Shown: piece after piece, positions 31,807 through 55,174 of the stretch
Layout: each line of letters opens with the position of its first letter
Position numbering within the stretch: the stretch's first letter is position 1
Source of the DNA: Actinomycetota bacterium
GTDB taxonomy: Bacteria > Actinomycetota > Acidimicrobiia > Spongiisociales > UBA4744
Assembly (NCBI GenBank): GCA_013152275.1
Contig: JAADGS010000027.1
Coordinates: 1-64,000 of the forward strand
DNA length: 64,000 bases
Direction: 5' to 3'
Translations under genes and position numbers: made by a program
The notes under the pieces: model-generated
Databases searched by the model: none
Seen by the model: the letters and a program-made list of their open reading frames with translations, nothing else
What the model was told of the DNA's origin: nothing

Positions 31807-31899
31807 GAGTTCTCCCTCTCGTTCTCCGTCACCGTAGCGGATAGATCCCCTCTCGTCTCTGCCGGCCACGGATAGTGCTGCCGGCAGAGACGAGAACAT

Positions 31900-34080
31900 T
31901 CAGGGCCGGAACCGGCGAAGCCTCAGTGAGTTGGTCACCACCGAGACACTCGATGAGGCCATCGCCGCTGCAGCGAGAACCGGGCTGATGATGCCGGCCG
32001 CCGCCAGGGGAATCATGGCAGTGTTGTAGATGAACGCCCAGAAGAGGTTCTGCTTGATCGTGCGGAACGTTGTCCGAGCCAGGCTCATCGCGGTGCCGGC
32101 GAGTGCGGGGTCGCCGGACATCAAGATTACGTCACCGGCCTCGATAGCTATGTCGGTCCCTGTTCCGATGGCCATTCCCAGATCTGCCTGGGTGAGTGCC
32201 GGGGCATCGTTGATGCCGTCACCGATGAACGCGACCGTCATGCCTTGGGATTGGTAATGCTCGACGCGGGCGGCCTTGTCGCCGGGCATGACCTCGGCTA
32301 CGACGTCGTCGATGCCGAGCGAACGGCCGATCGCATCGGCGGTCGTCCGGTTGTCGCCGGTGATCATTGCCACGCGGGTGCCCATCTGCTTGAGGTTCCG
32401 GATCGTGTCTCTTGCGGTCGGCCTGACGGTGTCGGCGACTGCGATCGCTCCACGGGTCAGACCGTCCCAGGCCACGAAGAAGACGGTTCTTGCATCCTTC
32501 TCGAGGTCGGCGGCCTTCGTGAGTAGAGACGTATCGATGTCGAGACCGAGGTCTGCGAACAGGGCTCGTCTGCCCACGACGACATCGTGGCCGTCAACGG
32601 TCCCCTGGACCCCCCGGCCGGGGTGATTCACAAACTGCGCCGGTCGTTCCAGCGTCACCTCGCGTTCTTCGGCACCAAGCGCGACCGCTCGGGCGATGGG
32701 ATGCTCGGACGCGGCCTCGATGGAACCGGCGAGCCGCAGGAACGTGTTCTCATCCTCGGTGGTGATGACGTCTGTCAACTCCATGAGCCCGTGCGTGAGG
32801 GTTCCGGTCTTGTCGAACATCACCAGGTCTACGTTCTTGGATCGCTCGAAGACCTCCGCTCCCTTGAAGACCACGCCGAGCTCGGCGCCCTTTCCGGAGC
32901 CCACCATGATGGCGGTGGGGGTGGCGAGGCCCAGTGCGCACGGGCAGGCGACGACGAGAACGGCGACACCGGTGATCACCGCTTTCGAGATGCCGCCGCC
33001 GGCGATGATCCACCCGACGGCGGTGAGCAGGGCGATACCCATGACGATGGGAACGAACAAGCCGGCGATCTTGTCTGCGAGCTTCTGGACGGGGGCCTTG
33101 GACGCTTGGGCGTCCTCCACGAGCGCCACGATCTGCGACAGGGCCGTATCGGCACCAACGCGAGTTGCCCGCACGATCAGGTTTCCCTGCTGGTTGATCG
33201 TTGCACCGAACACGTTCGCTCCGGGAGCCTTGTCCACGGGAACCGATTCGCCGGTGAGCATGCTCTCATCGATGGAAGACCGGCCATCGGTGATCACACC
33301 GTCGGTCGGAATCTTCTCCCCAGGCTTGACGATCATCAGGTCTCCGGCGGTGATGTCTTCGATCGGAATCAGTGTCTCTGTGCCGTTTCGCACGACCCTG
33401 GCCTGTTTCGCTCCGAGTTCCAGCAGTTTGCCGATGGCAGAGGAAGCGCGTCCCTTGGATCGAGCCTCGAAGAAACGACCGAGCAGAATCAGGGAGATGA
33501 TGATGCCGGCGGTGTCGAAGAAGAGCGGTTGACCGGCGAAGAATGCCCAGACCGAGTATCCCCATGCAGCGAGCGTCCCAACCGAGACGAGCGTGTCCAT
33601 GTTCGCGTCGAAACCGCGCAGCCGCTTGGCTGCGACACGGTGGAACTGCCAGCCGAAGACGAACTCCACGATCGTGGCGAGTCCCCACTGCAGGAGGCCG
33701 TTCGTTCTCGACTGCGGGACGAGCCATGCGAGGAGGATGAGAGGAATCGTGAAGAGCACCGCCCCGATGAAGTTGCGCCGCTGGTAGCGTTCCTCGTCGC
33801 TGTAGCGCTCCACGATGTCCACGCGTTCCATGTCGGGGGTCTTCTCCGAGATCTCATATCCGATCTTCTCGACTGCCCGGATGAGCCCGGAAACGTCGAC
33901 GTCGGGCGTAGTGGTGACCCTTGCTTCTTGACCTGCGTAGTTCACGACTGCCGTCGCGACACCTTCTTGTCTGGACAAGATGCGTTCGATACGGAGGGCG
34001 CACGAAGCACAGGTCATACCCTCGACATCGAAAGTGATCTGATCTGGAGGGAAGGTTCGAGTATCGGTGTCAGTGGCCAT
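31900..34080 (-). CDS. copA: Copper-exporting P1B-type ATPase
   Basis: 726 residues. It pumps Cu(I) out of the cytoplasm. One N-terminal heavy-metal domain (GMTCASC, Cys24 and Cys27), eight helices, the intramembrane CPC metal site ([15 protein letters not shown]), TGES actuator loop, phosphorylation motif [14 protein letters not shown] and [10 protein letters not shown] are all present. The C-terminal YN and [15 protein letters not shown] motifs confirm the Cu(I) class. It overlaps copZ by 11 nt; third gene of csoR-copZ-copA. Confidence 0.96.
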
Positions 34081-47922: not shown

Positions 47923-49638
47923 ATGAGACGCCGATTCTGGGTCGTTGCGTTGTTTGCCGTGTTGGCCATGGTGGCTGCTGCTTGCGGTGGCGGCGCGACG
48001 ACAACGACGACGGCTGCCCCGGCAACGACGGCTGCCACGACGACAACCGCCCCGACGACAACGACGACGGCTGCCACGACGACGACCGAGGCACCTCCGA
48101 GCCCCAAGACGATCATCATCGGCACGACCGACACGATTGCCGAGTTCGACTCGGCAGATGCGTACTCGGTGCGTGACTGGGAGATCATTCGTAATACCGG
48201 TGTGGGTCTGTTGACCTTTGCCCCCGGTACGACGGATCTGGTGCCCGGCATCGCCAAGAGCTACGACGTCAGTGATGACGGAAAGACCTATACGTTCCAT
48301 CTTCGTGACGATGTGAAGTTCGGCGATGGTTTGGCCCTGACGGCGCCGATGTATGTTGACCACATCCACCGGATGCTGACCCTCGACGGGTCGGGCGGTG
48401 TCGGCGGCGCGCTCGGTACGCCGTACATCGATACGGTGAGTGCACCGGATGATTTGACCGTGGTCTTCCAGCTGAAGGACGCGTTCGGCTACTTCCCGCA
48501 GATCGTTGCGGGTGCGCCGTACATCCCGATGGATCCGAACCAGTTCCCCCAGGACGCTCTCGTCGAGTTCCCGGACCCGCCGTTCTATGGCGTAGGTCCG
48601 TGGACGGTCACCGACTACACGATCGGTGAGCAGATGGTCCTCGAGCCCAATGAGTTCTACTTCGGCGACAAGCCGAAGGTGGACCGGATCATCATCAAGG
48701 ACTACTCGGATGCCCAGACCATGGCGCTGGCGCTGCAGAACCACGAGATCGACATCGCGTGGCGCACGATTGCGCAGCCCGACCTTCTCGAGCAGCTCAA
48801 GGGCGTGGACGGCCTGACGGTCGCCACCGTGCCTGGTGGTTCCATCCGCTATCTGATCATCAACCACGCTCTGTCGCCGACCGACGACTCCAACGTGCGC
48901 AAGGCGCTGGCATACGCGCTCGACCGTGACGACATCGTCGACCGGGTATCCGGTGGGACGTGGGAGCCGCTGTACTCGATGGACCCGCCAGGGTTCCTCG
49001 GTGCAACGGAGGCGTTCGACACGATGTACGGGTCGCCGAATCTCGACAAGGCGAAGGAAGCGTTGAAGGCCGCCGGCTACAGCGAATCGAACAAGCTGGA
49101 GCTGCAGTTGAGCTTCCCGCCACAGCACTACGGTGGCACGGTGAGCGACACGATGCAGGTTCTGAAGGAGCAGTTCGAAGCGACCGGCATGATCAACGTC
49201 ACGTTGAACTCGCAGGAGTGGAGCACGTATATCGGTGCCGTGATCGGCGGAGCCGACTACACCGTCTCGCTGCTCGGTTGGTTCTTCGACTATCCGGATC
49301 CGAGCAACTACCTGGAGCCGTTCGTACTCAATGGTGGACTTGGCACGATGGTGACCGATCCCGATACGGGTGAGGCATTGAGTGATGAGGCCGCGAACCT
49401 CGTCGACCTGCTGAAGCAGGCTGCGACGAGCACGGATCAGGCGAAGCGCGCCGACCTCTACGGGCAGGCACAGGATGTGTATGCAGACCTGGTCGTGACG
49501 ATCCCGATGTGGTTCGAGGCGGAGCACGTGATCTATTGGGACAACATCTCTGGCTCGGCGACCGACGCGAACCCGCAGTCGCTGAACATCGGACCTTCGT
49601 TCGATCTGAACTACGCGCTGCTGGATATCACCGGCTAG
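47923..49638 (+). CDS. Peptide ABC transporter substrate-binding lipoprotein (SBP_bac_5)
   Basis: 571 residues. Signal and lipobox LAMVAAAC (Cys21), then a Thr/Ala-rich stalk (about 25-60). The mature protein is DppA/OppA-like: DLVPGIAKSYDVSDDGKTYTFHLRDDVKFGDG, YGVGPWTVTDYTIGEQMVLEPN, NVRKALAYALDRDDIVD, LGWFFDYPDPSNYLEPF. Specificity is for peptides or similar oligomers. A hairpin with a TTCG loop follows, then two permeases and two ATPases on the same strand. Confidence 0.92.
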   Translation: MRRRFWVVALFAVLAMVAAACGGGATTTTTAAPATTAATTTTAPTTTTTAATTTTEAPPSPKTIIIGTTDTIAEFDSADAYSVRDWEIIRNTGVGLLTFAPGTTDLVPGIAKSYDVSDDGKTYTFHLRDDVKFGDGLALTAPMYVDHIHRMLTLDGSGGVGGALGTPYIDTVSAPDDLTVVFQLKDAFGYFPQIVAGAPYIPMDPNQFPQDALVEFPDPPFYGVGPWTVTDYTIGEQMVLEPNEFYFGDKPKVDRIIIKDYSDAQTMALALQNHEIDIAWRTIAQPDLLEQLKGVDGLTVATVPGGSIRYLIINHALSPTDDSNVRKALAYALDRDDIVDRVSGGTWEPLYSMDPPGFLGATEAFDTMYGSPNLDKAKEALKAAGYSESNKLELQLSFPPQHYGGTVSDTMQVLKEQFEATGMINVTLNSQEWSTYIGAVIGGADYTVSLLGWFFDYPDPSNYLEPFVLNGGLGTMVTDPDTGEALSDEAANLVDLLKQAATSTDQAKRADLYGQAQDVYADLVVTIPMWFEAEHVIYWDNISGSATDANPQSLNIGPSFDLNYALLDITG

Positions 49639-49655
49639 TCGCTTTCAAGCTGAGG

Positions 49656-49683
49656 AAGGGGCGGGCCTTCGGGCCCGCCCCTT
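49656..49683 (+). terminator. TTCG-loop hairpin between binding protein and permease genes
   Basis: AAGGGGCGGGCC-TTCG-GGCCCGCCCCTT, a 12-bp perfect stem with an extra-stable cUUCGg loop. It sits inside the operon, so it probably stabilises or partly terminates the abundant binding-protein message. Confidence 0.65.
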
Positions 49684-49791
49684 CTCTTGTCGTTGTGGGA
49701 CCTGCACAGGCGGCCAATCCGAGGATCGGAAGGGCGCCAGAGGGCGACCGTGGCGCGACGGGGGTAAACGCGGAGTAATCTGACGCTCCTT

Positions 49792-52151: not shown

Positions 52152-53140
52152 TGGGAGACATCCTCTACTCGATACGCGACCTCACCGTGGAGTACGCGAC
52201 CCGCTCCGGTTATGTGCACGCTGTCGACCAGGTCTCGTTCGACATCCGCAGAACCGAGATCCTGGGTCTCGTCGGCGAGTCCGGTTGCGGCAAGTCCACG
52301 TTGGGCAAGGCGCTCATGCGAATGATCCGACCTCCGGGTCGGATCGACGGCGGGGAGCTGTGGTTCGACGGCGTCGACCTCATGACGCTGTCGGAAAGGC
52401 AGATGCAGTCTGTCCGCGGTGCCGATATCGGCATGGTGTTCCAGGATCCCATGACGTCGCTGAACCCGGTCCAGAGGGTGATCGAGCATCTCACCGAGAC
52501 CATCCGAACCCATGAGCGGGGTGTCTCGGAGCTTGCGGCGAGAGCGAGATCCGAGGAACTGGTCGAGAAGCTCGGGATCAGGCGGGAGCGTCTTACCGAC
52601 TACCCCCACCAGCTCTCCGGAGGAATGCGGCAGCGGGTCATGATCTCACTGGCGCTTGCCCTGCGAGCAAAACTGGTGATCGCCGACGAGCCGACGACCT
52701 CTCTCGACGTCATCGTCGAGGCGAAATTCCTGGATCTGCTTCGGGAGCTTCGTGAGGAGTTCGACCTGACGATCCTGCTGATCACGCACAACATCGGCGT
52801 CGTCGCCGAAGTCGCCGACCGTGTCGCCGTCATGTATGCGGGCCGGATGGCGGAGATCGGTGACGTGTATGGAGTGTTCGAGAAACCGAAGCATCCGTAC
52901 ACCGATGGTCTGCTCCAGTCGGTGCCGAACATCAATCTGGCCGAACACGACCTCTACAAGATGGAGGGTTCCCCACCGAACCTGCTCCATCCTCCGTCCG
53001 GATGCCCGTTCCATCCTCGCTGTCCGAAGGCGATGGATATCTGCGCAGTCGAGGTGCCGGTGTTCCACGAAGTGGTTCCGGGACAGGCAACCGCATGCTG
53101 GCTCTATGAAGACGCCACCGAGGGGGCTGCGCGTGGCTGA
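52148..53140 (+). CDS. Peptide ABC transporter ATPase, DppD type
   Basis: 330 residues. Walker [11 protein letters not shown]-loop [10 protein letters not shown], signature LSGGMRQR, Walker B LVIADEP, D-loop TSLDV, switch THNIG. The C-terminal oligopeptide extension has four Cys ([16 protein letters not shown]), the arrangement that binds an iron-sulfur cluster in some DppD proteins. ATGA overlap with the permease gene; 8-nt overlap with the next ATPase gene. Confidence 0.92.
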
Positions 53141-54161
53141 GAATCTCGTCGAGGTTGTCGACCTCAAGAAGTGGTTCCCCGTCGCGCAGGGGTTTGTGGC
53201 GGGGCTGACCGGTGCTCCCCGTCGGTATGTGCGAGCCGTCGATGGGGTCACGTTCGAAATCCGCAAGGGAGAGGTATTCGGCCTCGCCGGCGAATCCGGC
53301 TCGGGAAAGTCCACCGTCGGCAGATTGGTGCTTCGGCTGCTCGAGCCGACCGACGGGAAGGTCGTGTTCGATGGCGTCGAGTTGGGTTCACTGTCTCGTG
53401 AAGAAATGCGGAAGCTTCGGCACCGCATGCAGGTCGTCTTCCAGGATCCGCTGGCGTCACTGAACCCCCGGATGACGATCGGCGAGGCCATCGAACATCC
53501 TGCAAAGATCCATATGCCCCATCTGAGTGCGGAGGAGCGCCACGCGCTCGTCCTTCGGATGCTCGACCAGGTGGGGATGGTGCCTCCGGAGTTCTTCCAC
53601 TCGAAGTATCCGCATCAGATCAGCGGTGGGCAACGGCAGCGGATCGTGTTCGCGAGGGGAATGATCACCGCACCCGATCTCATCGTGGCCGATGAGCCGA
53701 TCGCCATGGCGGACGTGAGCGTGCGAGCGCTGCTGCTCGATCTGATGATGGAGCTCAAGGATGAGTTCGACCTCACGTATCTGTTCATCAGTCACGACCT
53801 CGCCACCGCGAAGTATGTGTGCAACCGGATTGCCATCATGTATCTCGGCAAGATCGTCGAGATCGGTCCGCTCGAAGAGGTCTACACGAACGCGCAGCAT
53901 CCCTACACGCGGGCACTGCTCGACGCGGTTCCCGTTCCAGACCCGAAGCACCGGCGCACCGAGCCGCTGCCGGCCGGCGAGATTCCCAACCCGATCGATC
54001 CGCCTCCCGGCTGCAATTTCCATCCGCGGTGCAAGATCGCGCAAGCCGGGATCTGTGACGAGATCGACCCGGTCCTCTTGCCGGTCGGCGATGATCCCGA
54101 GCATCTCGCCGCCTGCCATCTTCGTACCGGCGAGTATCGGGACCTCGACCCGACGAAGTAG
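53133..54161 (+). CDS. Peptide ABC transporter ATPase, DppF type
   Basis: 342 residues from GTG 53133. Walker A GESGSGKST, FQDPLASLNP, signature ISGGQRQR, Walker B LIVADEP, switch SHDLATAKYV, and the C-terminal GCNFHPRCKIAQAGIC motif. The D-loop is unusual: DEPIAMADVS where most have DEPxSALDVS. Two 37-bp palindromic repeats lie just downstream. Confidence 0.9.
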   Translation: MAENLVEVVDLKKWFPVAQGFVAGLTGAPRRYVRAVDGVTFEIRKGEVFGLAGESGSGKSTVGRLVLRLLEPTDGKVVFDGVELGSLSREEMRKLRHRMQVVFQDPLASLNPRMTIGEAIEHPAKIHMPHLSAEERHALVLRMLDQVGMVPPEFFHSKYPHQISGGQRQRIVFARGMITAPDLIVADEPIAMADVSVRALLLDLMMELKDEFDLTYLFISHDLATAKYVCNRIAIMYLGKIVEIGPLEEVYTNAQHPYTRALLDAVPVPDPKHRRTEPLPAGEIPNPIDPPPGCNFHPRCKIAQAGICDEIDPVLLPVGDDPEHLAACHLRTGEYRDLDPTK

Positions 54162-54172
54162 TTCCCGTTCTC

Positions 54173-54209
54173 GTCAATGCCGGCGTCGGTATGCGACGCT
54201 TGTATTGAC
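54173..54209 (+). repeat. Self-complementary 37-bp repeat, copy 1
   Basis: GTCAAT ... ATTGAC ends and an inner GCGTCG/CGACGC stem around GTATG. It begins 11 bp after the ABC operon stop codon. Confidence 0.9.
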
Positions 54210-54232
54210 AGGAATCAGGTCCCGGTTTTCTT

Positions 54233-54269
54233 GTCAATGCCGGCGTCGGTATGCGACGCTTGTATTGAC
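54233..54269 (+). repeat. Self-complementary 37-bp repeat, copy 2
   Basis: Identical to copy 1, 60 bp downstream, ending 14 bp before the ROK gene start. The outer flanks (TTCTC before copy 1, GAGAA after copy 2) are also complementary, so the pair can fold as one large stem or as two hairpins. Confidence 0.9.
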
Positions 54270-54283
54270 GAGAAAGGGTGGAT

Positions 54284-55174
54284 GTGCGGATAGGGATCGA
54301 CCTGGGTGGAACCAAGATCGAGGGGATCGCTCTCGACGACAGAGACCACGAGCTGGTTCGGCGGAGGATCGCGACCCCTGCCGGCGACTATGAGGCGATC
54401 GTTCGAGCCGTCGCAGAGCTGGCCCGATCGCTCGAAGAGGCGACCGGATCTCAGGGAACGGTGGGGATCGGGCACCCGGGCGCGATCTCACCTGCCACAG
54501 GTCTGGTCAAGAACGCCAACTCCGTCGTGCTCAACGGGCGTCCGCTCGATGAAGACCTCTCGGCAGCTCTCGGTCGGCCGGTCCGTCTCGCCAACGACGC
54601 CGACTGCTTCGCGCTGTCCGAGGCGATCGACGGGGCGGCGGTTGGAGCAGACGTCGTGTTTGCAGTGATCCTGGGCACGGGGGTCGGTGGGGGCATTGTG
54701 GTACATGGCGCACTGCTGTCCGGTCCGAACGGTATCGCCGGCGAGTGGGGGCACAACCCGTTGCCGTGGCCACGGGCGGATGAACTGCCCGGTCCCGCCT
54801 GCTATTGCGGGCTGCACGGCTGTGTGGAGACGTACCTCTCAGGGCCGGCGATGGAGCGCGATTACTCCGAAGGGCGGGAGCTGTCGAGTCGGGAAATCGT
54901 TCGGCGGGCCGAGGCCGGAGGCGACAGGGCGATCGCGGTGATGGATCGGTATGTCGACAGGCTCGCGAGGTCGCTCGCCGTTGTGATCAACATCGTCGAT
55001 CCGAACGTCGTCGTCTTGGGTGGTGGCATGTCCAACATCGATGTTCTCTATGAACGGATTCCACAGATGTGGGACAGGTACGTGTTCAGCGACCGGGTCG
55101 ATACCCGGTTGGTGAAGGCGCTCCACGGTGACTCGAGCGGAGTGCGTGGTGCTGCACGGCTCTGGCCCGGGTAG
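54284..55174 (+). CDS. ROK-family sugar kinase
   Basis: 296 residues. The ATP motif IGIDLGGTKIEG (3-14), GIGHPGAIS, NDADCFALSE (catalytic Asp), GTGVGGGIV and the ROK zinc site GEWGHN (His157) with CYCGLHGCVE (Cys173, 175, 180) are present. Best guess: fructokinase or glucokinase-type. GTG 54284 has AAAGGG 5 nt upstream; GTG 54278 is less well placed. Confidence 0.9.
   Translation: MRIGIDLGGTKIEGIALDDRDHELVRRRIATPAGDYEAIVRAVAELARSLEEATGSQGTVGIGHPGAISPATGLVKNANSVVLNGRPLDEDLSAALGRPVRLANDADCFALSEAIDGAAVGADVVFAVILGTGVGGGIVVHGALLSGPNGIAGEWGHNPLPWPRADELPGPACYCGLHGCVETYLSGPAMERDYSEGRELSSREIVRRAEAGGDRAIAVMDRYVDRLARSLAVVINIVDPNVVVLGGGMSNIDVLYERIPQMWDRYVFSDRVDTRLVKALHGDSSGVRGAARLWPG

Follow-up and report, generated by a model that had tools for sequence, protein, structure and literature searches.

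The two identical 37-nucleotide repeats located near 54 kb of the window, a term used here for the whole 64,000-nucleotide stretch of Actinomycetota DNA that was analyzed, are probably one dimer of a REP-like family of dispersed hairpins that is restricted to a single genus, is non-autonomous and reliant upon an enzyme supplied in trans, and often lies at transcript ends.

The repeat pair and the anatomy of the unit

The preliminary description of this DNA reported a pair of identical 37-bp repeats between an ABC transporter operon and a ROK kinase gene, and exact copies of GTCAATGCCGGCGTCGGTATGCGACGCTTGTATTGAC with a pitch of 60 are indeed present there, between neighbors whose identities are confirmed by Pfam (Table 1). 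The chance expectation of a 37-mer pair in the window is a mean of 0.00 (100 shuffles), and longer copies of 47 nt (54168-54214 and 54228-54274), likewise spaced by 60, are 94% alike. The pair takes up almost all of the space between the stop codon of the ABC ATPase gene, which ends at 54161, and the ROK gene, whose start would be a GTG at 54278 or 54284, and GAGAAAGGGTGG at the right edge of the pair may serve as the ribosome-binding site of the ROK gene. The best database relatives of the ROK protein (54278-55174) are mostly from Proteobacteria, at 58-67% identity, and one Acidimicrobiia record is found among the 80 relatives kept; the gene was perhaps acquired horizontally.

Table 1. Coordinates of the repeat units, their parts and associated genes (window positions unless a locus is given).
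Feature	Position	Strand	Details
Unit 1, 49-bp imperfect palindrome	54167..54215	.	62.8 bits on +, 63.6 on -
Exact 37-mer core of unit 1	54173-54209		
Spacer between the 49-bp units, 11 nt	54216..54226	.	dimer pitch 60
Unit 2, direct (head-to-tail) copy of unit 1	54227..54275	.	66.3 bits on each strand
Exact 37-mer core of unit 2	54233-54269		
Alternative single long stem of the whole pair, extent	54164..54278	.	
ABC transporter ATPase, oligopeptide type, upstream gene	53106..54161	+	PF00005, PF08352; gene call
ROK family, downstream gene	54278..55174	+	PF00480; gene call
Diverged third copy in the window	31849..31897	.	27.7 bits, E 8e-6
1057-aa gene, Exo_endo_phos domain, between two units	L052:4007-7543 (G000:C46)		

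Comparison of 55 units yields a 49-bp consensus, TTTCYY-GTCAATGNNNGCGTCG-N5-CGACGCNNNCATTGAC-RRGAAA, which forms an imperfect palindrome and in which the arms GTCAAT, GCGTCG, CGACGC and ATTGAC are nearly invariant while the triplets and the loop vary, an arm conservation that is inflated because the units were collected by a core pattern. In 42 of the 55 units the triplets are asymmetric, reading NNA on the left and mostly CRG on the right, which produces a 3x3 internal mismatch and gives the unit a direction; a stem of about 22 positions with this mismatch is usual for the family. The third copy in the window retains a perfect 16-bp outer stem with a changed inner part, and lies beyond a predicted minus-strand gene (31900-33945), 2 nt from its stop codon.

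All 19 dimers, 15 from the genome to which the window belongs (G000) and four from its sister species (G001), are nearer in direct than in inverted register, the closest call being that at L047 with 8 versus 9 differences. Dimer pitch is 60 in 11 cases and 61 in the remaining eight, and the partners within a dimer differ by a mean of 1.7 positions as compared to 5.6 for units from different dimers, taking the better of two orientations. The spacers keep a length of 11-12 nt while varying in sequence, although they are partly alike from site to site; several share a G-rich stretch on one strand, e.g., GGGGTTGG, and no link was seen between the G-rich strand and the direction of the unit. Complementary flanks that would lengthen the stem are suggestive at single loci, such as CCC/GGG at the 54 kb pair, but stand at chance level family-wide (2.60 versus 2.55 of 8), and the idea was rejected; the value for family 4, in which many loci had been counted on each strand, was left aside.

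Two further properties of the sequence were considered and set aside. The peptide QYKRRIPTPALT, which the preliminary description regarded as encoded by the unit on the minus strand, can be read twice in a mechanically listed open reading frame (53836-54315), but that frame is antisense to the codon-biased ABC ATPase gene and shows no sign of translation, and a coding role was rejected. Similarly rejected was a DNA uptake signal: TTCTCGTCA occurs three times in the window, twice within the 54 kb pair, versus 0.73 expected, a count that covers the window only.

Distribution of the family among related genomes

Members of the family were counted with the pattern GTCAATNNNNGCGTCGNNNNNCGACGCNNNNATTGAC, allowing at most 3 mismatches; the pattern is its own reverse complement, so that each place is counted once, and a backwards control pattern gives 0 matches. 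The 37-mer is not unique, and the case that the preliminary description named as refuting, a unique and unconserved pair, does not apply: 37 units lie at 22 sites of the own genome, composed of 15 tandem pairs and 7 singles with never more than two units at one site, and the sister species of the same genus holds 18 units, composed of 4 pairs and 10 singles. At the same threshold, the pattern is absent from the other 37 of 39 relatives and, when all 138 order genomes are searched, from the remaining 136, and a pattern for the outer arms, searched in the 138 order genomes, matches the same two genomes only (22 and 10 matches, respectively). A covariance model built from 48 units adds diverged copies missed by the pattern, namely that at 31849-31897 of the window, L069:5151, L073:1539, L232:278 and, weakly, L059:3668. 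Because patterns limited to 3 mismatches miss such copies, the copy numbers given above are lower bounds and the conservation of the arms is overstated.

In other sequence collections, the exact pattern finds no match in the genome_contigs or viral_contigs sets, and BLAST of the pair against plasmids and phages returns nothing, both in sets that may omit the own and very near genomes. One chance-like match (L142) was found at up to 7 mismatches in 80 loci around the relatives of the ROK protein, and no description of the family was found in the open-access literature searched by titles and abstract starts.

Most of the main blocks in which G000 and G001 align show 85-92% identity, and 14 of the 22 own sites could be compared one to one with the sister species; three more represent one rearranged place, and L044, L049, L053, L056 and L061 were left out. 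A recognizable hairpin is kept in G001 at 13 of the 14 comparable sites, the exception being L055 versus L065, where G001 is without a unit; this share of conserved sites is biased upward, since most of the G001 stretches were chosen for holding a unit. Where the hairpin is shared, copy number or middle sequence often differs. A pair in G000 is opposed by a single in G001, with one repeat of 60-61 nt less, at L058/L067, at L057/L071 and at the second L046/L066 site, while the middle is replaced and the outer arms kept at L069:5151 and at L232:278, the latter opposite the L054 pair.

In the rearranged place, the sister species (L069) carries one diverged unit, flanked by an HD-domain gene on one side and by an aldo/keto reductase gene on the other. 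In G000, contig C46 has the order reductase gene, unit, 1057-aa gene, unit and start of the 3' part of the HD gene, this last being a contig-end copy, and the last features of contig C80 are the HD gene and, after it, a repeat pair. Identity is 91% between the two copies of the HD gene and 99% over the 81 bp on the far side of the repeat, so the arrangement reflects either two strains mixed in the assembly or two copies; under either reading, the pair/single difference occurs within one assembly. The position of the Exo_endo_phos gene between units is possibly the result of insertion or exchange at the repeats.

Among more distant relatives, G002 (another genus of the same family) has no element at the L054 site, where the genes nearly abut, G003 lacks the full element at the first L058 site, and the ABC-ROK gap of L100, an Acidimicrobiia bacterium that is syntenic with 80% DNA identity over 2.4 kb, contains no unit. 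In nine stretches taken from G002, G003, G004 and L100, the covariance model run with all filters off scores at best 12.3 bits (E 0.059), at L199. At the second L058 site, G002 (L196, G002:C56:2000-2800) carries CCGGCATTGACAGGAGC, 2 mismatches from the 17-nt arm, and 400 randomly drawn 800-nt segments of the window all stand at least 3 mismatches from that arm. This sequence could be a decayed half-unit; such a remnant, if real, would imply that the family predates the genus, and it weakens the claim that the relatives are without the element.

The own genome also harbors two further hairpin families of about 50 bp. The second family, CCCGTTCTCGTGACGSTT..GGGATTATTCC..CGTCACGAGAACGGG, measures about 56 bp (L058:9120-9176; loci L202-L221), has the end TTCTCGT in common with the present family, and is matched 42 times in G000, 9 times in G001 and twice in G068, a more distant genome from another family of the order (3 of 138 genomes). 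The third family, GAACCCAGGGCTCAGGGGGGTCGCCACGACCCCT..GGGTTC (L054:5516-5552; loci L234-L251), is near-identical in all 18 places retrieved, 13 of them agreeing over the full 34 nt compared and the other five having a single mismatch, a near-identity suggesting that it is probably the most recently active. At two contig ends, L248 (G000:C41:1-300) and L249 (G000:C59:1-300), both flanks of a third-family hairpin are inverted copies of each other, an arrangement that looks like a fold-back assembly artefact.

Folding, gene context and rival explanations

As the preliminary description stated, each copy is self-complementary, with predicted RNA folds of -26.1 kcal/mol (z -6.2) and -30.1 (z -7.6), and the outer TTCTC and GAGAA segments pair such that the whole can fold as one long stem; as a single RNA stem, the plus strand of 54160-54282 scores -71.1 (z -8.9), and its minus strand -53.7 (z -8.1). 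Base-pair covariation among 48 of 53 distinct units scores 0.077 versus 0.101 in shuffles, paired cells amount to 84.8% versus 86.5%, and compensatory cells and paired percentage fall below all or nearly all shuffles, values that are partly lowered by the mixing of both orientations in the test. An oriented retest of the mismatched triplets finds 24 of 120 cells paired, which is the shuffle level. The proposal of an RNA structure proven by covariation was rejected with scores at or below those of shuffles, and the fold therefore follows from the conserved sequence while selection as RNA is not supported. A search of Rfam over 53500-55000 at a permissive threshold returned no family at gathering score over the repeats, the best match there being a microRNA model at 22.1 bits versus a cut-off of 116.6. 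A T-tract, taken as five or more T among the 8 nt that follow the stem, with both strands considered, is found at 1 of 56 units, and a canonical intrinsic terminator is accordingly not supported. Within the same ABC gene cluster, a strong hairpin with a TTCG loop (49654-49685) follows a gene called at 47923-49638 and has a partly T-rich tail, CTTGTCGTTG, making it more terminator-like.

The sites lie mostly in gene gaps, as delimited by a crude codon-bias script some of whose calls are doubtful, and whose calls for L050 and L051 differ from those for the G001 counterparts. By these calls, 9 of the 22 own sites are convergent, 7 tandem and 5 divergent, with 1 unclassified at a contig end, as compared to 24 convergent, 107 tandem and 30 divergent gene pairs without an element; convergent gaps are thereby enriched (9/21 versus 24/161, one-sided Fisher P 0.0045). 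Such placement, together with the great stability of the hairpins, an element start no more than 12 nt away from a predicted stop codon at 11 of the 22 own sites, several convergent gaps with little content besides the element, and the keeping of the outer stem where the middle has been replaced (L069:5151 and L232:278), would suit bidirectional terminators without a U-tract, often doubled and kept for their function, whose shared sequence stems from copying by recombination and not from transposition. That explanation is rather unlikely: in addition to the near absence of T-tracts and the lack of covariation, 5 of 21 sites are divergent, neither conserved sequence nor polarity is needed for termination, and G002 does without the element at the L054 site. 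Another account, in which the palindrome is the dimer-binding site of a host protein (a regulator, nucleoid or replication protein) amplified because it is useful, draws upon the near-invariant hexamers separated by variable positions and upon a pitch of 60-61 nt and spacers of 11-12 nt that are kept despite varying spacer sequence. We regard it as improbable, given that gene ends and not promoters are favored, that some orthologous sites have lost the inner arms, and that the conservation of the core is inflated by the core-pattern search.

The preliminary description proposed that two alternative folds might act as a terminator/antiterminator, and both folds can be formed, but there is no positive evidence for such a role, which is left without support by the rarity of T-tracts, the lack of covariation and the 5 of 21 classified own sites that are divergent. 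A switch or attenuator particular to the ROK gene is very unlikely, as the pair has no U-tract and the same dimer occurs at 15 own sites beside different genes and so is not a ROK-gene device. The superficial likeness in repeat length, spacing and palindromy to a two-repeat CRISPR array, with a 37-nt repeat and a 23-nt spacer, can be dismissed with near certainty: units are scattered over 22 own sites with at most two at each, spacers are partly alike between sites, and no Rfam CRISPR family lies at the repeats, the sole sub-threshold match falling in coding sequence at 53945-53990. The dispersed, REP-like hairpin family named at the outset is the explanation we prefer, and its members may influence where transcripts end or how stable the mRNA is.

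Mobility, known repeat systems and a proposed mechanism

A search for Y1_Tnp (PF01797; RAYT-type transposase) found no match in 39 genomes, a result that covers Y1 enzymes only and comes from a search that recovered the domain in 5 of 14 known genomes used as a positive control. Target-site duplications were rejected, as the sequences on the two sides of 35 elements from two genomes agree at chance level, and no recent insertion with clean boundaries was seen; mobility is consequently argued from dispersal. Regarding the REP- or MITE-like character put forward in the preliminary description, the broad sense stands, as the repeats are short palindromes that are dispersed in many copies and mostly extragenic, while the GTAG/CGTC tag, a Y1/RAYT transposase and target-site duplications were not found. 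In 55 units the unpaired GTAG/CGTC end tag is absent, CGTC being found only inside the stem, and the ends TTTCYY and RRGAAA are mostly paired.

Rho-independent terminators have in common with the family a stable hairpin after a stop codon, but the T-tract is missing here. MITEs are small, palindromic, non-coding and dispersed, all of which they share with the present repeats; unlike MITEs, the family has yielded neither a target-site duplication nor a parent transposon. According to the portions of Di Nocera et al. (2013, PMC3733652) drawn upon here, tagged dispersed hairpin repeats have been described mainly from Proteobacteria and are tied to RAYT transposases. As described in those portions, tagged REPs resemble the present units in being short extragenic palindromes, single or dimeric, that lie near gene ends and between convergent genes, with several families per genome, and in forming dimers whose spacers are similar in length and different in sequence and which are able to fold into a single large stem. 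The same portions also describe features that set tagged REPs apart: an unpaired GTAG/CGTC end motif, stems of 5-13 bp (GTAG) or 8-9 bp (CGTC) versus about 22 positions with a 3x3 mismatch here, and head-to-tail dimers that are absent or under-represented, as opposed to 19 of 19 here (PMC3733652). A further difference is that the present family was not found in the other order genomes searched. It is REP-like, but stands outside the tagged, RAYT-linked REPs.

REPINs, as presented in the parts of Bertels and Rainey (2011, PMC3116915) used here, likewise consist of a hairpin unit of two inverted half-sites and frequently form doublets, their singles are explicable as remnants, and their ordered clusters are tandem near-identical units. 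In contrast, of the 430 REP doublets counted in those parts, 93% are inverted (PMC3116915), whereas the hairpin copies here are direct: the inverted HH or TT dimers that define REPINs and BIMEs are found in none of the 19. The Y1 transposase domain of RAYT, the mobilizer of REPINs, was not found here in 39 genomes. The nearest heading, likened by description, is that of the untagged REP-like families of M. tuberculosis, D. radiodurans and others, which the consulted portions of Di Nocera et al. (2013, PMC3733652) characterize as palindromic and intergenic, with no conserved terminal tag. By analogy, the present repeats would be REP-like elements working as passive hairpins at gene ends.

A course of events consistent with these observations can be proposed. 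Units would have spread as hairpin DNA in an ancestor of the genus, or perhaps before that, with a mobilizer supplied in trans that would not be a recognizable Y1/RAYT transposase. Exchange or slippage between direct repeats may then have homogenized the partners of a dimer, or led to their loss or gain, turning pairs into singles and back. Where transcribed, the hairpin would stand in the 3' end of the mRNA, most likely as a passive barrier that causes a pause or Rho-dependent termination or that stops 3' exonucleases. In the case of the 54 kb site, the dimer would in this way form a boundary between the ABC operon and the ROK gene, with the presumed ribosome-binding site of the latter overlapping the right edge of the repeat. 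The end TTCTCGT common to the present and second families is the basis for a more specific and speculative version, in which a REP-like mobile system employs an enzyme other than Y1/RAYT that recognizes polar mismatched hairpins, places them by stop codons and leaves direct dimers with a pitch of 60-61 bp, serving at least two families with TTCTCGT...ACGAGAA-like ends; we hold this version to be doubtful.

A genus-confined family from a clade in which no RAYT was found, with direct dimers of fixed pitch and pair/single differences between two sister species, offers a tractable case in which to study how repeats spread, how their partners are homogenized and whether the repeats set transcript ends. 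Even if it is merely another decaying REP-like family, it would still explain the filling of many gene gaps in this genome.
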